From: Spirochaetales bacterium
Lineage (GTDB): Bacteria > Spirochaetota > Spirochaetia > JABEVK01
Length of the DNA stretch: 64,000 nucleotides
Assembly (NCBI GenBank): GCA_947478845.1
Contig: CANJXC010000001.1
Span: 310,001 to 374,000 of the forward strand
Direction: 5' to 3'
Both the position numbers and the translations under genes were made by a program. Shown one piece after another: positions 51,210 to 59,227 of this stretch. Numbering within the stretch: the first letter of the stretch is position 1; every line of letters begins with the position of its first letter. A model generated the notes under the pieces. That model was not told the DNA's origin. It did not search any database and saw nothing but the letters and a program-made list of their open reading frames with translations.

Positions 51210-51779
51210 CTACCGGTCCCCGAGTGGGCCAATCAAAGACAGAAACTCTTCGCGAGTCTTTGGGTCTGAGCGGAAGTTGCCAAGAACAGCGCTGGTCACC
51301 ATGGACGAATGCTGTTTCTCGACACCGCGCATCATCATGCAAAGGTGCTTGGCTTCGACGACAACTCCTACTCCCAATGCGTTTGTTGCTTCCATGACAG
51401 CTTGTGCCAACTCTTCGGTCAGGCGTTCCTGAATCTGAAGACGACGCGCGAAAACATCGGCGAGCCTGGCAATCTTGCTCACTCCCAGCACTTTGTCGCG
51501 AGGAATGTAGCCGACTTGACAGCGACCAAAAAAGGGCAGCAGGTGATGTTCGCACAAGGAAAAAATTTCAATGTTGCGAACAATCACCATGCTACTTCCA
51601 GAGGCCTGAAAAACGGCTTGGTTCAATACTGCTTGCGGCGTCTGGCGGTATCCGCGGGTCAAGAACTCCCAGGATTTCGCTACCCTTTCTGGCGTGCGGG
51701 CAAGGCCCTCCCGCGACGGATCTTCACCGAGTTCGACAAGTAGCTCGCGGATCAACTGGGCCACACGGTCCTGATTCAT
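51210..51779 (-). CDS. folE: GTP cyclohydrolase I
   Basis: FolE turns GTP into 7,8-dihydroneopterin triphosphate, the first step to folate or other pterins. The 189-residue protein has [17 protein letters not shown], zinc ligands C76 and H79 in [10 protein letters not shown] and the third zinc Cys in [12 protein letters not shown]. Length is normal. It follows hsp20 by about 36 bases on the same strand and could be in its transcript. folB and a pteridine-reductase-like gene lie just upstream of hsp20. Confidence 0.95.
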
Positions 51780-51815: not shown

Positions 51816-52175
51816 TTACGCCGCGGGTTGAACAACGACCTTGCGGGGCTGAGCTTCCGGTAGCTTGGGAAGAATCACCACAAGCAACCCGTTGTCAAAC
51901 TTAGCGGCAATGGCGCTTTGGTCGACGTCACGGGGCAACCGGAAGCTACGCTGGTAGCCGGAGACGGAACGTTCTCGCAGCAGCCAGCGAGCTTCTTCGG
52001 TTTGGACCTCCGGTGTGGGCACGCTCAGTTCGAGAACTCCATCGGCAACTTGGATTTGAACCCGGTCCTGCGGTATTCCGGGCAACTCGGCCGTTAACTG
52101 GTATTCCCCCTTGGTTTCAGCGACATCCACTCGGGGTGCGCTCACCTGGTTGAATAGTAAAGTGTAAGCATTCAT
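51816..52175 (-). CDS. small heat shock protein (Hsp20/alpha-crystallin)
   Basis: This 119-residue protein is an alpha-crystallin domain protein. It has the VDVAETKGEYQLTAELPGI strand start, ELSVPTPE, and GYQRSFRLPRDVDQSAIAAKFDNGLLVVILPK, split here around the A-x-x-x-N-G-L signature. Such proteins hold unfolded clients in large oligomers. The N-terminal arm is short and the C-terminal tail lacks a clear IxI motif. AGGAGG precedes ATG 52175. A perfect sigma-54 promoter lies upstream (52213-52228), so expression probably depends on RpoN and an enhancer-binding protein. Confidence 0.92.
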   Translation of the reverse strand: MNAYTLLFNQVSAPRVDVAETKGEYQLTAELPGIPQDRVQIQVADGVLELSVPTPEVQTEEARWLLRERSVSGYQRSFRLPRDVDQSAIAAKFDNGLLVVILPKLPEAQPRKVVVQPAA

Positions 52176-52212
52176 GGGAAACCTCCTATTGATTCCTCAG
52201 ATACCTACACTA

Positions 52213-52228
52213 AGCAAGTACCGTGCCA
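52213..52228 (-). promoter_or_regulatory. sigma-54 (RpoN) promoter of hsp20
   Basis: The minus strand reads TGGCACG (52228-52222), GTAC, then TTGCT (52217-52213). This matches the -24/-12 consensus TGGCACG-N4-TTGCW at every position. The predicted start is near 52203, about 28 bases before the ATG with its AGGAGG site. Confidence 0.8.
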
Positions 52229-52337
52229 ATAACCAATTTTTAGCAAGCAAATGCCTGCAATATATAATCTTATTAGAAATTCCACCTCAAATAAACCAGG
52301 TCTCAAGGCAGACTTGCATGGATCTAATTGATACAAA

Positions 52338-52406
52338 TGAGTCAAATATATACATACGGAGATATTTTCAATCTTTCAGTTTCAAAATGACTCACTGAGT
52401 CATTTT
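52338..52406. promoter_or_regulatory. candidate enhancer (upstream activating) sites for hsp20
   Basis: A perfect palindrome lies at 52384-52406: arms AAAATGACTCA and TGAGTCATTTT around a single C. A further TGAGTCA lies at 52338-52344. They are about 140-190 bp upstream of the sigma-54 promoter, across visibly AT-rich DNA that could bend. This is the usual place and form of enhancer-binding-protein sites. The palindrome overlaps the folB stop codon. Confidence 0.5.
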
Positions 52407-52756
52407 CTTCTGGTCATCGAGCAACTTATCTGGAGAGGGGGTTGTGCGCCAGGCTTTTCCACGGTGACTTTCACCGCGTCAATTCCATCTCGGGCTAAGA
52501 AAAAACCACACAGGTCGCTCGTCAGGGTCTCAAGTAGCACCCAACGCTTCGTCGTCGCCCAAGCCTCGAGATCTTTCCGCAGGAGTGCATAGTCTAAGGC
52601 TTTCTCAAGCCGATCGGACTCGGCGGCTCGCTGGAAGTTTCCCCGAACTTTCACGTCTAGTACGACTTCTTGGGTCGAGTCCTGTTCGTGTTCGTAGGCC
52701 CCCAAGAAGACAAAAATGCTCCAGTTTCGGACCCGGAGCTGATCATATTGAGCCAA
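52400..52756 (-). CDS. folB: dihydroneopterin aldolase-like protein
   Basis: This 118-residue protein resembles FolB, which cleaves dihydroneopterin to 6-hydroxymethyl-dihydropterin. Visible are the VFLGAYEHEQDSTQEVVLDVKV strand with the conserved Glu, the ALDYALLRKDLEAW helix, the LLETLTSDLCGFFL helix with Glu, and VTVEKPGAQPP near the C-terminus. Sequence is divergent but the pattern is complete. It overlaps the pteridine-reductase-like gene by 14 bases. Confidence 0.8.
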   Translation of the reverse strand: MAQYDQLRVRNWSIFVFLGAYEHEQDSTQEVVLDVKVRGNFQRAAESDRLEKALDYALLRKDLEAWATTKRWVLLETLTSDLCGFFLARDGIDAVKVTVEKPGAQPPLQISCSMTRRK

Positions 52757-55220: not shown

Positions 55221-55883
55221 TTGACCCTGAAAGCCGTCGCCTTTGACGTGGATGGGACGCTCTATTCGAACGCATCCATGATCTGGCGCTCCCTTCCGCT
55301 GGCCCTGGCCAACTCCCGCCTCCTGAAAGCCCTCGAAAAGGCCCGGATCGAGTTGCATAATCATCCGCACCACCTTACCGACGTTCACAAAACGCAGGCA
55401 GAAATCGTTGCTAAAATTCTGGGTCTTCCCTTGGAGACAGCCCTCAGCCGCATTGAAAAAACCGTCTACACGGACTGGTACAAGCTCTTCCATCGTCTGA
55501 AACCTTACTCGGGTCTGAAAACTCTCATAGGCCGGCTGAAAGCAGAAGGCTTTAAGTTGGCTGTCATGTCGGACTTTTCAATTCGGGGAAGGCTCGCGGC
55601 GCTCGGCCTCGAAGACGGTTGGGATCTGGTGTTTTCGTCCGAGGAGATTGGTTGGCTCAAGCCACACCCGGAGCCGTTTCTGCACATCGCCGAGAGCTTG
55701 GCCCTCCCCCCTGAACAAGTTCTGTACGTTGGAAACTCGGTCACCTACGATGTCGCCGGAGCCCACGCCGCTGGTATGCCCTGCGCGCATTTAGGACGCT
55801 CGGCGAACGAGTCAACGGCTGCGTTCACATTCCGCAGCTACCGTGAATTGGAAGCTTTCCTCTTCCCTAGGGGCCTTCCATGA
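55221..55883 (+). CDS. HAD-superfamily hydrolase (phosphatase-like)
   Basis: This 220-residue protein has HAD motif I FDVDGTLY (catalytic Asp pair), motif II MSDFS, the motif III Lys in GWLKPHPEPF, and motif IV VGNSVTYDVAGAHAAG. The helical cap between motifs I and II fits subclass I phosphatases such as phosphoglycolate-type enzymes. Substrate is unknown. The start is TTG 55221 with AGGAGG six bases upstream; the in-frame ATG at 55188 adds eleven non-conserved residues. The stop overlaps the coiled-coil gene ATG. Confidence 0.88.
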   Translation: MTLKAVAFDVDGTLYSNASMIWRSLPLALANSRLLKALEKARIELHNHPHHLTDVHKTQAEIVAKILGLPLETALSRIEKTVYTDWYKLFHRLKPYSGLKTLIGRLKAEGFKLAVMSDFSIRGRLAALGLEDGWDLVFSSEEIGWLKPHPEPFLHIAESLALPPEQVLYVGNSVTYDVAGAHAAGMPCAHLGRSANESTAAFTFRSYRELEAFLFPRGLP

Positions 55884-58800
55884 CCTTTGACTGGGGTTAC
55901 CTCGTTGTTCTGGGAGTCGTTTTCGTCATGCTGGTGGTTTTCCGCCAGCTGGATAGGAACAACCGCTCCCTAGAGAAGATCCGTAAGTTTGCCGAGACTG
56001 TCCGGCACGAACTGAACACTTTCGTCGATGAGCGGACCGCCTCCATCAAGGACTTTGAAACCATTCTTAAAGTGCACGACAAGACAGCCGGCGAAATTCT
56101 TCGTCGCATACAGGCCGTTGAGTCCGGGCTCCTTGGCCGCATGCCCGAGATCGAGGACATGCAGGCCCGCCTGAACCGCTATGCACTGTCGATCAAGGAT
56201 CTCGATGCCATGACGTTGCGGGTCGAGAGCAATTTCCAAAAGCTCGAGGAAGAAACCGTTTTTGTGGACAAAATCGGGCTTCGCATCAAGGGTGCCTCTG
56301 ACCAAATGACAGACTTGGAGGCCACCTTCGTCCAGATTCGGCAGGAGTTTGCTGACATCAATCAAAAAGACCTTGAGACGGTACGTCGCAATGCGTTGCA
56401 AGTCTTCGAAGCCGAGACTCTTGTTTACGTGGAGCAACTGAACGCTGCCAACGCCAAAGTTGACCAGTTTCAAGCGACGATGGATGCCCTCCAAGCCACC
56501 CGTGACATCATGGTTGCAGAGACAGCAGCTCTCCTTGAAGAAAACGCCCGCAAGACGCTGGACAAGGCCGATGCCACCTTTCAGAGCACCGCAGCACAAG
56601 CAGAGAACTTGGGCCTCCAGGTGTTCCGCGATCTGGACGCCCGTATTCAGGCTCTCGCCTCCCAGTCGGAACTCAATCTCCGGCAACAACTCGATATCCT
56701 CGGCCAAAACTTCGACGATGGAGTGTCTGACCTAAACCAGGCGCTTCAGAGAACCCGAGCTGATGCCAGCGCCCTGCGCACCGACACCGACAACGAACTC
56801 AACTCGCTCCGTGAACGCTTTGAGGTAACAAGTTCCAACCTGAGGTCGGAGTTCCAAAGCGAGCAGGCCCAGTTGATGGGGATGACCGCCCAGCTTAAGG
56901 GTGATCTGGAAGCAAAACTCCTCAGCGTCCGAAAAGAAACCGTAGCTGAAGCCGACACGATGCGGCACGAGTTGCTGGCTACCCTGGAACTCAGCCAAAG
57001 GGCTGCGAAGGACTACCTGACCGAGGTGCAGAACCACGAGGCCCGTATGGCCGAGAACTTAGATTCCAGGATCAAGGACTATGAAGCCGGTTTTGCCTAT
57101 CGTTACCAGAAATTGGAAGAGGCCGAGAAGGACATTCTGCTGCTCGATGCTAACCTCAGGCAGACGATGGATCGCGTAGCTGAAAAGGTCGTTCAGGACT
57201 TCCAGAACTTTGACCAGCGGATGAAAGTTCATCGGGAGGAAGAACAGGCCCAGCTCGAGAGCAAGATTGCCGCCGGCCGCGAGTCTGTTCAACAGCTCGA
57301 CAAAGAACTAGAGGAACTCAAGTCCCGCGCCTACGACAACGTCAGCGAAAAATTACAAGGCTTTGAAGAAAGTTTCTTCCTGGACCTGCAGAAGCGCAAC
57401 GCTGAGCTCCATCAGGCGCTTGAGGAATGGCAGGCGAGTCTGAAAGTTCAGCTCGATGAGAACAAGCAAGCGGCTTCCCTCGACATGGACGAAGCGCAAA
57501 GAAACTTTTCCGAGTCAGCCCGCCTCAAGACCCAGGAATTGCAGGCGAGCACTTGGGGCCAGCTCGACCGCTTGGAGCGCCAGATTCATGAGTCACAGGA
57601 AGCTGCGACCAGCCAGATACGAAGTCACCAGTTAGAACTCGACGAAACCAGGGCACAGCTCAGGGATCAGCTTACCGAACTTGAGAAAGCCCTCAGTGCC
57701 CGTTACAAGCAGGAAGTCAGCCGTGCCGAGCTCGAAGCTAGTGAGGCCGTTACTAAGCTCGAACGCGACGCCGAAACCCGGATCAGGCAGATTACCGAAC
57801 GCCTCGACCAGTTCCGTGCCGACACCCAGGAAACTCTGGACTCAACTCAAACCGAGTTCACCGCCGGTCAGGCTCGCTTTACCCAGCGGCTCAAGGACGC
57901 GGAAGGTGAGATGGGTGAACAATACCGTTCGTTCAAGCAGTCTCTGAACGAAAAGATCTCGGCCTTGACCGAAGAGTTCACCCTGCAGAAAGAGGAGTTA
58001 GTCACGCGGTCGGCCGAAGACCGGGCCTCGCTCAAGAGTGACTTGGCGCAAATGCGCTCTGGAATAGACGAGCTCGACAGCACCCTCCGAATCAAGACCC
58101 AGTCCGCCTCGGAGGCTTTCGAGCGGGAATACGAAACTTCGCTTGCTGATTTCCAGAAAAAAAACCGCGACCTTTTGCTCGATATGGAGAACAAGTTGCG
58201 CGACTACCGCTCGGCGGTTCAAGACACCCGGGAAAAGTTTGATGCCCAACAGAAAAAACTCTTCGGAAAGGTCGAGGACCAAGCCAACTTGCTTACGGTT
58301 AGTCTCGAGGAAATCGACAAGAAGCAGAAATCGTTTGTGAGCCAAACCAAGGTGTTCGAGCGCGCCGATTCCCTGAAACAGGAACTTCAGGAGTCTATCG
58401 AGGACCTGAAGGGCGATCTAGCGCGGATCGACGTCCAGCGCAAGGACTTGTTTGAAGTTGAGGCGTCTATCAGCCGGATCAAAAAGCTTGGCGAGGAAAC
58501 TAGCGAAAAATTGGCCCGATTTGCCACAGAGAAAAAGCGGATCGACTTGATGGATACCGACTTCCAGCGCATCCTGGCTCTCTCTCAATCGATGGAAGTA
58601 CGGCTCGAGCAAGTGACTTCAAGTAGCGACCTTCTGCAGGATATTCAGCTCAAGATCCGCAAGCTCGAAGATTACTCGAAGGATATCGAGATTCGATACG
58701 ACAGACTTGAAAAGCGCCGCGAGTTGCTCGACAACACCACCGACGGGGTGGACAGAAACTTCTCGATTCTCGAGCGAGTTGAGAAAGACCTCAAGGGTGC

Positions 58801-59227
58801 TCAATCGGACCTTCGCCAACTTCCTGGGGAAGTAGAGGAACTTCGGAAACGCCTTAAAGTTCTTGCTGCCGGCAAAGAAGATGCCGACAAGGCCGTCGAG
58901 CGCCTTTCGCAGCTCGACCAACTGATCAAGGATGTCGAAACCCGCATGAGTCGGATGGAGGAAGCACGGGACTGGATTGCCCGCACCGAGACACGGCTTA
59001 TCGAAACCAAGGACGCAGCCGAGGCGCAAATTGGTACGTTCCAGTCGTTGGCCAAGGCGAACAGCCCAGTTGGAGCATCGGTCAAGGGAAAGAGTGCTGT
59101 CGACAAGGACCTTCGCGAAACCGTCCTGAAACTGTCTCGGCAGGGTTGGGGAAAGGAAGAAATCTCACGAGCCACCAAGCTTTCCATGGGCGAAGTGGAG
59201 CTTATCCTTGAATTAGGTCCGCGTTAG
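55880..59227 (+). CDS. SpiroCoCo-type membrane-anchored coiled-coil protein
   Basis: This 1115-residue protein has one N-terminal membrane segment (about 6-22). About 1050 residues of nearly unbroken heptad-type coiled coil follow, rich in Glu, Gln, Lys and Leu and almost free of Pro. The last ~35 residues, including RQGWGKEEISRATKLS and GEVELILELG, form a helix-turn-helix-like tail. The architecture matches the spirochaete-specific SpiroCoCo family. It may form a cytoplasmic or periplasmic filament tied to the membrane and help cell shape or division, which is inference. It overlaps the HAD gene and ends seven bases from convergent murD. Confidence 0.9.
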   Translation: MTFDWGYLVVLGVVFVMLVVFRQLDRNNRSLEKIRKFAETVRHELNTFVDERTASIKDFETILKVHDKTAGEILRRIQAVESGLLGRMPEIEDMQARLNRYALSIKDLDAMTLRVESNFQKLEEETVFVDKIGLRIKGASDQMTDLEATFVQIRQEFADINQKDLETVRRNALQVFEAETLVYVEQLNAANAKVDQFQATMDALQATRDIMVAETAALLEENARKTLDKADATFQSTAAQAENLGLQVFRDLDARIQALASQSELNLRQQLDILGQNFDDGVSDLNQALQRTRADASALRTDTDNELNSLRERFEVTSSNLRSEFQSEQAQLMGMTAQLKGDLEAKLLSVRKETVAEADTMRHELLATLELSQRAAKDYLTEVQNHEARMAENLDSRIKDYEAGFAYRYQKLEEAEKDILLLDANLRQTMDRVAEKVVQDFQNFDQRMKVHREEEQAQLESKIAAGRESVQQLDKELEELKSRAYDNVSEKLQGFEESFFLDLQKRNAELHQALEEWQASLKVQLDENKQAASLDMDEAQRNFSESARLKTQELQASTWGQLDRLERQIHESQEAATSQIRSHQLELDETRAQLRDQLTELEKALSARYKQEVSRAELEASEAVTKLERDAETRIRQITERLDQFRADTQETLDSTQTEFTAGQARFTQRLKDAEGEMGEQYRSFKQSLNEKISALTEEFTLQKEELVTRSAEDRASLKSDLAQMRSGIDELDSTLRIKTQSASEAFEREYETSLADFQKKNRDLLLDMENKLRDYRSAVQDTREKFDAQQKKLFGKVEDQANLLTVSLEEIDKKQKSFVSQTKVFERADSLKQELQESIEDLKGDLARIDVQRKDLFEVEASISRIKKLGEETSEKLARFATEKKRIDLMDTDFQRILALSQSMEVRLEQVTSSSDLLQDIQLKIRKLEDYSKDIEIRYDRLEKRRELLDNTTDGVDRNFSILERVEKDLKGAQSDLRQLPGEVEELRKRLKVLAAGKEDADKAVERLSQLDQLIKDVETRMSRMEEARDWIARTETRLIETKDAAEAQIGTFQSLAKANSPVGASVKGKSAVDKDLRETVLKLSRQGWGKEEISRATKLSMGEVELILELGPR

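Follow-up and report, generated by a model that had tools for sequence, protein, structure and literature searches.

How a small heat-shock gene is switched on in a spirochaete is the question raised by the folB-hsp20-folE locus of a Spirochaetales bacterium, located in a window of 64,000 nucleotides (the whole stretch of DNA that was analysed). The original prediction placed hsp20 under RpoN control, with a perfect sigma-54 promoter, a distant 23-bp palindrome as the enhancer of an unknown enhancer-binding protein, and an AT-rich bendable spacer in between. The genes and promoter elements of the locus are as follows.

51210..51779, minus strand: folE, GTP cyclohydrolase I, above the NCBIfam folE cut-off
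51816..52175, minus strand: hsp20, small heat-shock protein of 119 aa, with its ATG at 52175
52182..52187, minus strand: AGGAGG ribosome-binding site of hsp20, read from the sequence
52202 (give or take 1-2 bases), minus strand: predicted +1, placed 12 bases downstream of the -12 GC
52213..52228, minus strand: predicted sigma-54 -24/-12 element TGGCACGGTACTTGCT, an exact consensus conserved before hsp20 across Spirochaetia
52400..52756, minus strand: folB-domain gene (dihydroneopterin aldolase-like), upstream neighbour of hsp20, TIGR00526 above cut-off

Comparison of TGGCACGGTACTTGCT with TGGCACGN4TTGCW upstream of hsp20 gave zero mismatches, so the exact TGGCACG-N4-TTGCT had been read correctly, as had its fitting distance from the AGGAGG site, the predicted +1 lying about 27 nt before the hsp20 ATG. 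The 224 bp of intergenic DNA between folB and hsp20 (52176-52399) are indeed AT-rich and unlike the rest of the window, with 35.7% GC vs 54.6% in the window, and only 0.1% of 224-bp windows are equally AT-rich. Downstream, the gap between hsp20 and folE is 36 nt, and the gene order folB-hsp20-folE recurs in one relative (L057, gap to folE about 40 nt), where it appears to link the folate genes to hsp20; the short gap and the shared order make it plausible that folE belongs to the hsp20 transcript in this family only. A predicted coiled-coil-rich protein of 1115 aa is encoded near the locus (window 55880-59227).

The absence of rpoN, the main refutation envisaged for the original prediction, can be set aside because the source genome (G000) carries both rpoN (PF04552, E 8e-46, C17:33177) and eight full enhancer-binding proteins, while four weaker matches resemble generic AAA+ proteins. 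Exact TGGCACG-N4-TTGCW strings occur seven times in the genome against about 0.7 estimated for random sequence. A genome scan allowing two mismatches returned more than 400 -24/-12 matches, no more than the control, so that only strict sites carry weight alone and the statements on this genome use only sites with at most one mismatch.

Relatives of hsp20 in Spirochaetia were collected as one set from genomes and one from named records, which partly overlap some genomes being present in both, and the searches for sigma-54 sites and operators were drawn from the closest relatives, not from a random sample. Among the first loci of the genome set, a -24/-12 site was present in 30/30 with at most two mismatches and in 22/30 with at most one, and 18 of 20 further loci, including a second hsp20 lineage, also had a site; at the Borrelia-like hsp20 loci, L247 showed no -24/-12 site and L248 a weak match only. 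The named spirochaete loci gave 17/19 with at most one mismatch, the other two having two mismatches, and none of 61 non-spirochaete hsp20 loci had a site with at most one mismatch.

The presumed recognition element of the activator was sought by the same comparison. The most strongly over-represented 6-mer was GTGTCA/TGACAC, found in 40 of 57 spirochaete hsp20 upstream regions against 4.9 expected, and it is arranged as a 15-bp inverted repeat, GTGTCA-WWW-TGACAC, with a 3-bp W-rich centre (23 cases vs 0 expected). In these 57 regions 32 pairs of whole operators are spaced exactly 40 bp apart, and the next spacings are 18 and 22 bp, indicating that operators often come in arrays of three. At a threshold of 11 bits, 55/56 spirochaete hsp20 regions had operators vs 1.2 in shuffles, and 23 had exact 40-bp pairs vs 0 in shuffles; at the same threshold only 2/58 non-spirochaete hsp20 regions had operators and none had pairs. 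The scores barely moved when the family of the window was omitted from matrix training. The corresponding elements of the window are listed below.

52379..52393, minus strand: putative operator 1, GAGTCATTTTGAAAC, at -165 from the -24 element, 14.9 bits
52339..52353, minus strand: putative operator 2, GTATATATTTGACTC, at -125, 11.1 bits, exactly 40 bp from operator 1
52320..52334, minus strand: putative operator 3, GTATCAATTAGATCC, at -106, 12.6 bits, with comparable third sites in L055 and L056
52397..52402, minus strand: everted extra half-site TGACTC, overlapping the folB stop codon
52384..52406, no strand: 23-bp perfect palindrome AAAATGACTCA-C-TGAGTCATTTT, RNA fold -12.9 kcal/mol

Upstream activator sites of sigma-54 promoters typically lie at 80-200 bp, a range that includes all three positions. 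With its own family left out, operator 1 still scores 14.7 bits, the top match in the 64-kb window is at 52379, and 3/7 of the matches of at least 10 bits fall inside one 75-bp stretch upstream of hsp20. The window operators are weaker than those of relatives, operator 2 reaching about 11 bits. Both an enhancer and the palindrome are real, and the second TGAGTCA copy was located at 52338-52344, but the palindrome is not the unit: relatives have lost or never had the full palindrome but retain the 15-bp operator, which shares one arm with it, and the perfect symmetry is due to the additional half-site next to operator 1. Such everted half-sites 3 bp apart occur seven times in spirochaete hsp20 upstream regions against 0.03 expected. 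TGACTCA was likewise discarded as the consensus, the class form being GTGTCA/GGGTCA/GAGTCA/GTATCA, and the supposed bendable spacer is AT-rich but partly consists of operators.

Taken at sequence level, the region upstream of hsp20 is a genuine sigma-54 promoter with paired putative activator sites, kept across nearly all Spirochaetia, and the proposal that hsp20 is under sigma-54 control is supported by rpoN, the enhancer-binding proteins and this class-conserved arrangement. The second, distant hsp20 lineage in other spirochaetes (L258-L263) has the sigma-54 site as well, mostly with operators. Sigma-54 control of hsp20 with operators is also predicted at L375-L378, L381, L391, L394, L397 and L401, which come from other classes of this phylum, the operators of L376, L377 and L378 being 40 bp apart, and the arrangement was absent from some other members of the phylum outside Spirochaetia. 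Its origin may predate the class.

Within the source genome, 30 sigma-54-like sites have no more than one mismatch, and operators scoring 10 bits or more lie upstream of only two of them, namely those of hsp20 (-165/-125) and of a gene for a sigma factor (-166/-126).

G000:C4:174798-175664 (L295), divergent from groES: sigma-70-family gene of ~290 aa, with an exact -24/-12 site and putative operators at -166/-126

Together with its sigma-54 site and operator pair this gene occupies G000:C4:174798-175872 (L295), and it belongs to a class-wide clade distinct from RpoD. It provides an independent test, as the operator matrix was trained on hsp20 alone and the relatives of the sigma gene were absent from training. 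Operators of at least 11 bits precede the gene in 38/38 upstream regions vs 0.5 expected, and exact 40-bp pairs in 19/38 vs 0 expected, the 38 being those sigma genes for which a sigma-54 site was found and the upstream DNA was long enough; five more sigma genes, outside the 38, had no sigma-54 site with at most two mismatches. A search of the source genome for the exact single-operator pattern GNGTCAWWWTGACNC gave one match, at the sigma gene, and the hsp20 operator is one of ten with one mismatch to it. The nine others were dismissed as further targets, those inspected having no nearby sigma-54 site and lying mostly inside ORFs.

Other exact or near-exact sigma-54 sites of this genome have no operators (G000:C17:14514 and 26627; L015, L017, L034). 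Several of the operator-less sites precede short secreted-looking proteins, and a separate envelope regulon under sigma-54 is possible, since two of them are close to rpoN and to the genes for two other enhancer-binding proteins. Another exact site (G000:C9:100641, L018) stands directly before a gene that begins MSDTLDAQSGVPALFGSKTF and may encode a glutamine synthetase.

For the enhancer-binding protein that had been supposed, and left unknown, a candidate can now be named with fair confidence.

G000:C20:24651-26027: REC-AAA+-Fis protein, candidate activator, with PF00072, PF00158 and PF02954 over cut-off

The protein contains GSFTGA, a loop of the GAFTGA type, and it is the only one among the eight candidates to give reciprocal best matches in nearly all genomes compared, with orthologues at least 56% identical in 59/60 genomes. 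In G017 and G042, both of which carry a sigma-54 hsp20 with operators, the sole clear enhancer-binding protein is of the C20 type (E about 1e-74), the next matches lying near 1e-7 and resembling generic AAA+ proteins, and in G012, whose sigma gene has a 19-bit operator, the C20 type is again the only one. A comparison of positions by hand showed that in 24 genomes the activator gene and the operator-bearing type of sigma gene share a strand, with the sigma gene 3-11 kb further downstream. The activator gene follows a PAS-type kinase gene in an operon that includes murG and a holB-type gene, an order (murG, holB-type, kinase, activator) seen in L294 and shared with L304, a 1.2 Mb genome that appears Borrelia-like on grounds including gene order and a 267-aa RpoS. 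The Fis helix GNKSKAAEILGIGRKTLHRK is conserved among the activators, a comparison to which the alignment rows of G001 and G017, in the wrong reading frame, give no support. On these sequence comparisons, the REC-AAA+-Fis protein encoded at C20:24651-26027 is the most likely activator of hsp20. Operator-like sites were also seen at the start of murG, the first gene of the activator operon (L303:843-857 in G017 and L306:393-407 in G029), and autoregulation of the operon is possible.

The main live alternative, which we consider unlikely, accepts the operators as real and assigns them to a different binding protein, either one of the other enhancer-binding proteins among the eight or a protein of another type that acts as repressor or co-activator. 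Motif and protein were matched by co-occurrence and neighbourhood, the source genome has eight enhancer-binding proteins to choose from, two of them near rpoN, and larger genomes have up to about 12, so that another could have replaced the activator in some genomes, including this one. Against this alternative, G017, G042 and G012 have operator-bearing sigma-54 targets yet a single clear enhancer-binding protein each, and in the 24 genomes mentioned an operator target lies close to the gene for the activator; the operators, moreover, accompany sigma-54 sites at enhancer distance.

Two further readings would take the DNA elements themselves for something else. With an A tract and a T tract placed symmetrically, a fold of -12.9 kcal/mol (z = -4.1) and an overlap with the stop codon of folB (TGA 52400-52402, minus strand), the palindrome could be an intrinsic terminator of that gene whose resemblance to an operator is secondary. 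An intrinsic terminator is, however, a conserved G+C-rich hairpin with a T tract, whereas each arm here has a G+C of only 4/11, the hairpin is imperfect in L055 and L056 of the same genus (without a T tract in L056) while the operator half-sites are kept, and operators also stand before the unrelated sigma gene and where no upstream folB was detected. We therefore regard this reading as improbable, although the two roles could coexist, an additional terminator for folB being possible given the stability of the fold. Because promoter scans, such as the two-mismatch scan above, are rich in false positives, coincidence in AT-rich intergenic DNA might be suspected behind the -24/-12 match as well as the repeats. 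Both their position and their sequence are nevertheless conserved across the class with a shuffled expectation near zero, by which coincidence is already refuted at the level of conservation and retains a negligible share of our belief.

The model as a whole, in which a sigma-54 hsp20 promoter, an operator array and the C20 activator as counterpart of Rrp2 act together with the sigma gene as co-target, is considered quite probable. It is built on the promoter, the operators, their spacing, class-wide conservation, the single-activator genomes and the gene neighbourhood. Sigma-54 RNA polymerase would transcribe hsp20, probably with folE, from the element at 52213-52228, and a response-regulator enhancer-binding protein, most likely the C20:24651-26027 product of the murG-holB-PAS kinase-regulator operon, would bind the 15-bp operators at -165, -125 and -106. 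The bound activator would remodel the closed complex, looping through the AT-rich DNA, and would be phosphorylated by the neighbouring kinase, with protein-folding stress as the presumed inducer. The same activator and operators would also drive the sigma-70-family gene next to groES; with a common activator, a single signal would increase hsp20 expression directly and that of a further sigma regulon by an indirect route.

To our knowledge, no DNA-binding site is known for Rrp2, the regulator of Lyme-disease spirochaetes. The candidate activator is probably the orthologue of this protein from the Hk2-Rrp2 pair, because the murG-holB-type-kinase-activator order is common to the Borrelia-like L304. 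Activation of rpoS by Rrp2 in Borrelia was reported to need no enhancer, Rrp2 showed no binding up to 238 bp upstream, and searches by gel shift or deletion found no enhancer (PMC1976401). Additionally, the signal for Hk2-Rrp2 is not known there, growth requires Rrp2 independently of RpoN and beyond its enhancer-binding role, and heat-shock genes are altered in rrp2 mutants independently of RpoN-RpoS (review PMC12472547). The Borrelia Hk2-Rrp2-RpoN-RpoS cascade thus shares with the proposed circuit a probably orthologous response-regulator activator and kinase, the order from murG to the kinase-regulator genes and the placing of a sigma-70-family gene behind a sigma-54 promoter; it differs in that paired putative operators are found here whereas rpoS activation is enhancer-independent there (PMC1976401), that hsp20 is a proposed direct target here, and that the sigma gene is not of the RpoS clade. 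Orthology of the sigma gene with Borrelia RpoS was rejected, as the two form separate clades with full support in a tree in which long branches meet, and the cascades are therefore parallel, not orthologous at the target.

Consistent with PMC1976401, rpoS in the Borrelia-like genome has a sigma-54 site and no operators. Two Borrelia-like genomes keep the activator and a near-identical helix with no operator beside any sigma-54 site, so operators cannot be predicted from the helix alone; the few operator matches in these genomes, which fall within coding sequence that has no sigma-54 site, were not accepted. Since the Fis helix of the Borrelia-like activator (NNKSKCAEILKIGRKTLHNK) differs little from that of the class, the DNA specificity may persist.

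Among other known systems, the NtrC-type enhancers of glnA and similar genes also combine two activator sites 100-165 bp upstream of -24/-12 with a REC-AAA+-Fis activator, but NtrC sites have another sequence and spacing than the GTGTCA-N3-TGACAC operators 40 bp apart described here. NorR operators have the form GT-N7-AC, a possible likeness in that the half-site spacing here also fits it, whereas the candidate activator has a receiver domain and not the sensor domain of NorR. In E. coli, ibpB is a heat-shock gene under sigma-54 control. A predicted sigma-54 heat-shock cluster including the IbpA family has been reported as enriched in Planctomycetota and Bacteroidota, and the available part of that paper neither names Spirochaetia for the cluster nor assigns an enhancer or activator (PMC12316311); a small heat-shock gene under sigma-54 is what both precedents have in common with the present locus. 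A literature search of partial coverage returned no paper linking sigma-54 and hsp20 in Spirochaetia.

The arrangement would mean that small heat-shock genes throughout a bacterial class are controlled by a sigma-54 switch that depends on ATP, and not by sigma-32 or a repressor. Beyond this, we give even odds to the view that Hk2-Rrp2-RpoN began as a spirochaete folding-stress circuit, acting through paired operators on hsp20 and a sigma-70-family factor, and that Borrelia lost the operators and rewired it to rpoS and virulence. A class-wide operator with a named ancestral target offers a defined piece of DNA with which proteins of the Rrp2 type can be probed, and it suggests protein-folding stress as the original Hk2-Rrp2 signal. 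If the view just given is true, the operator of this locus would be the DNA target that has so long been missing for Rrp2.
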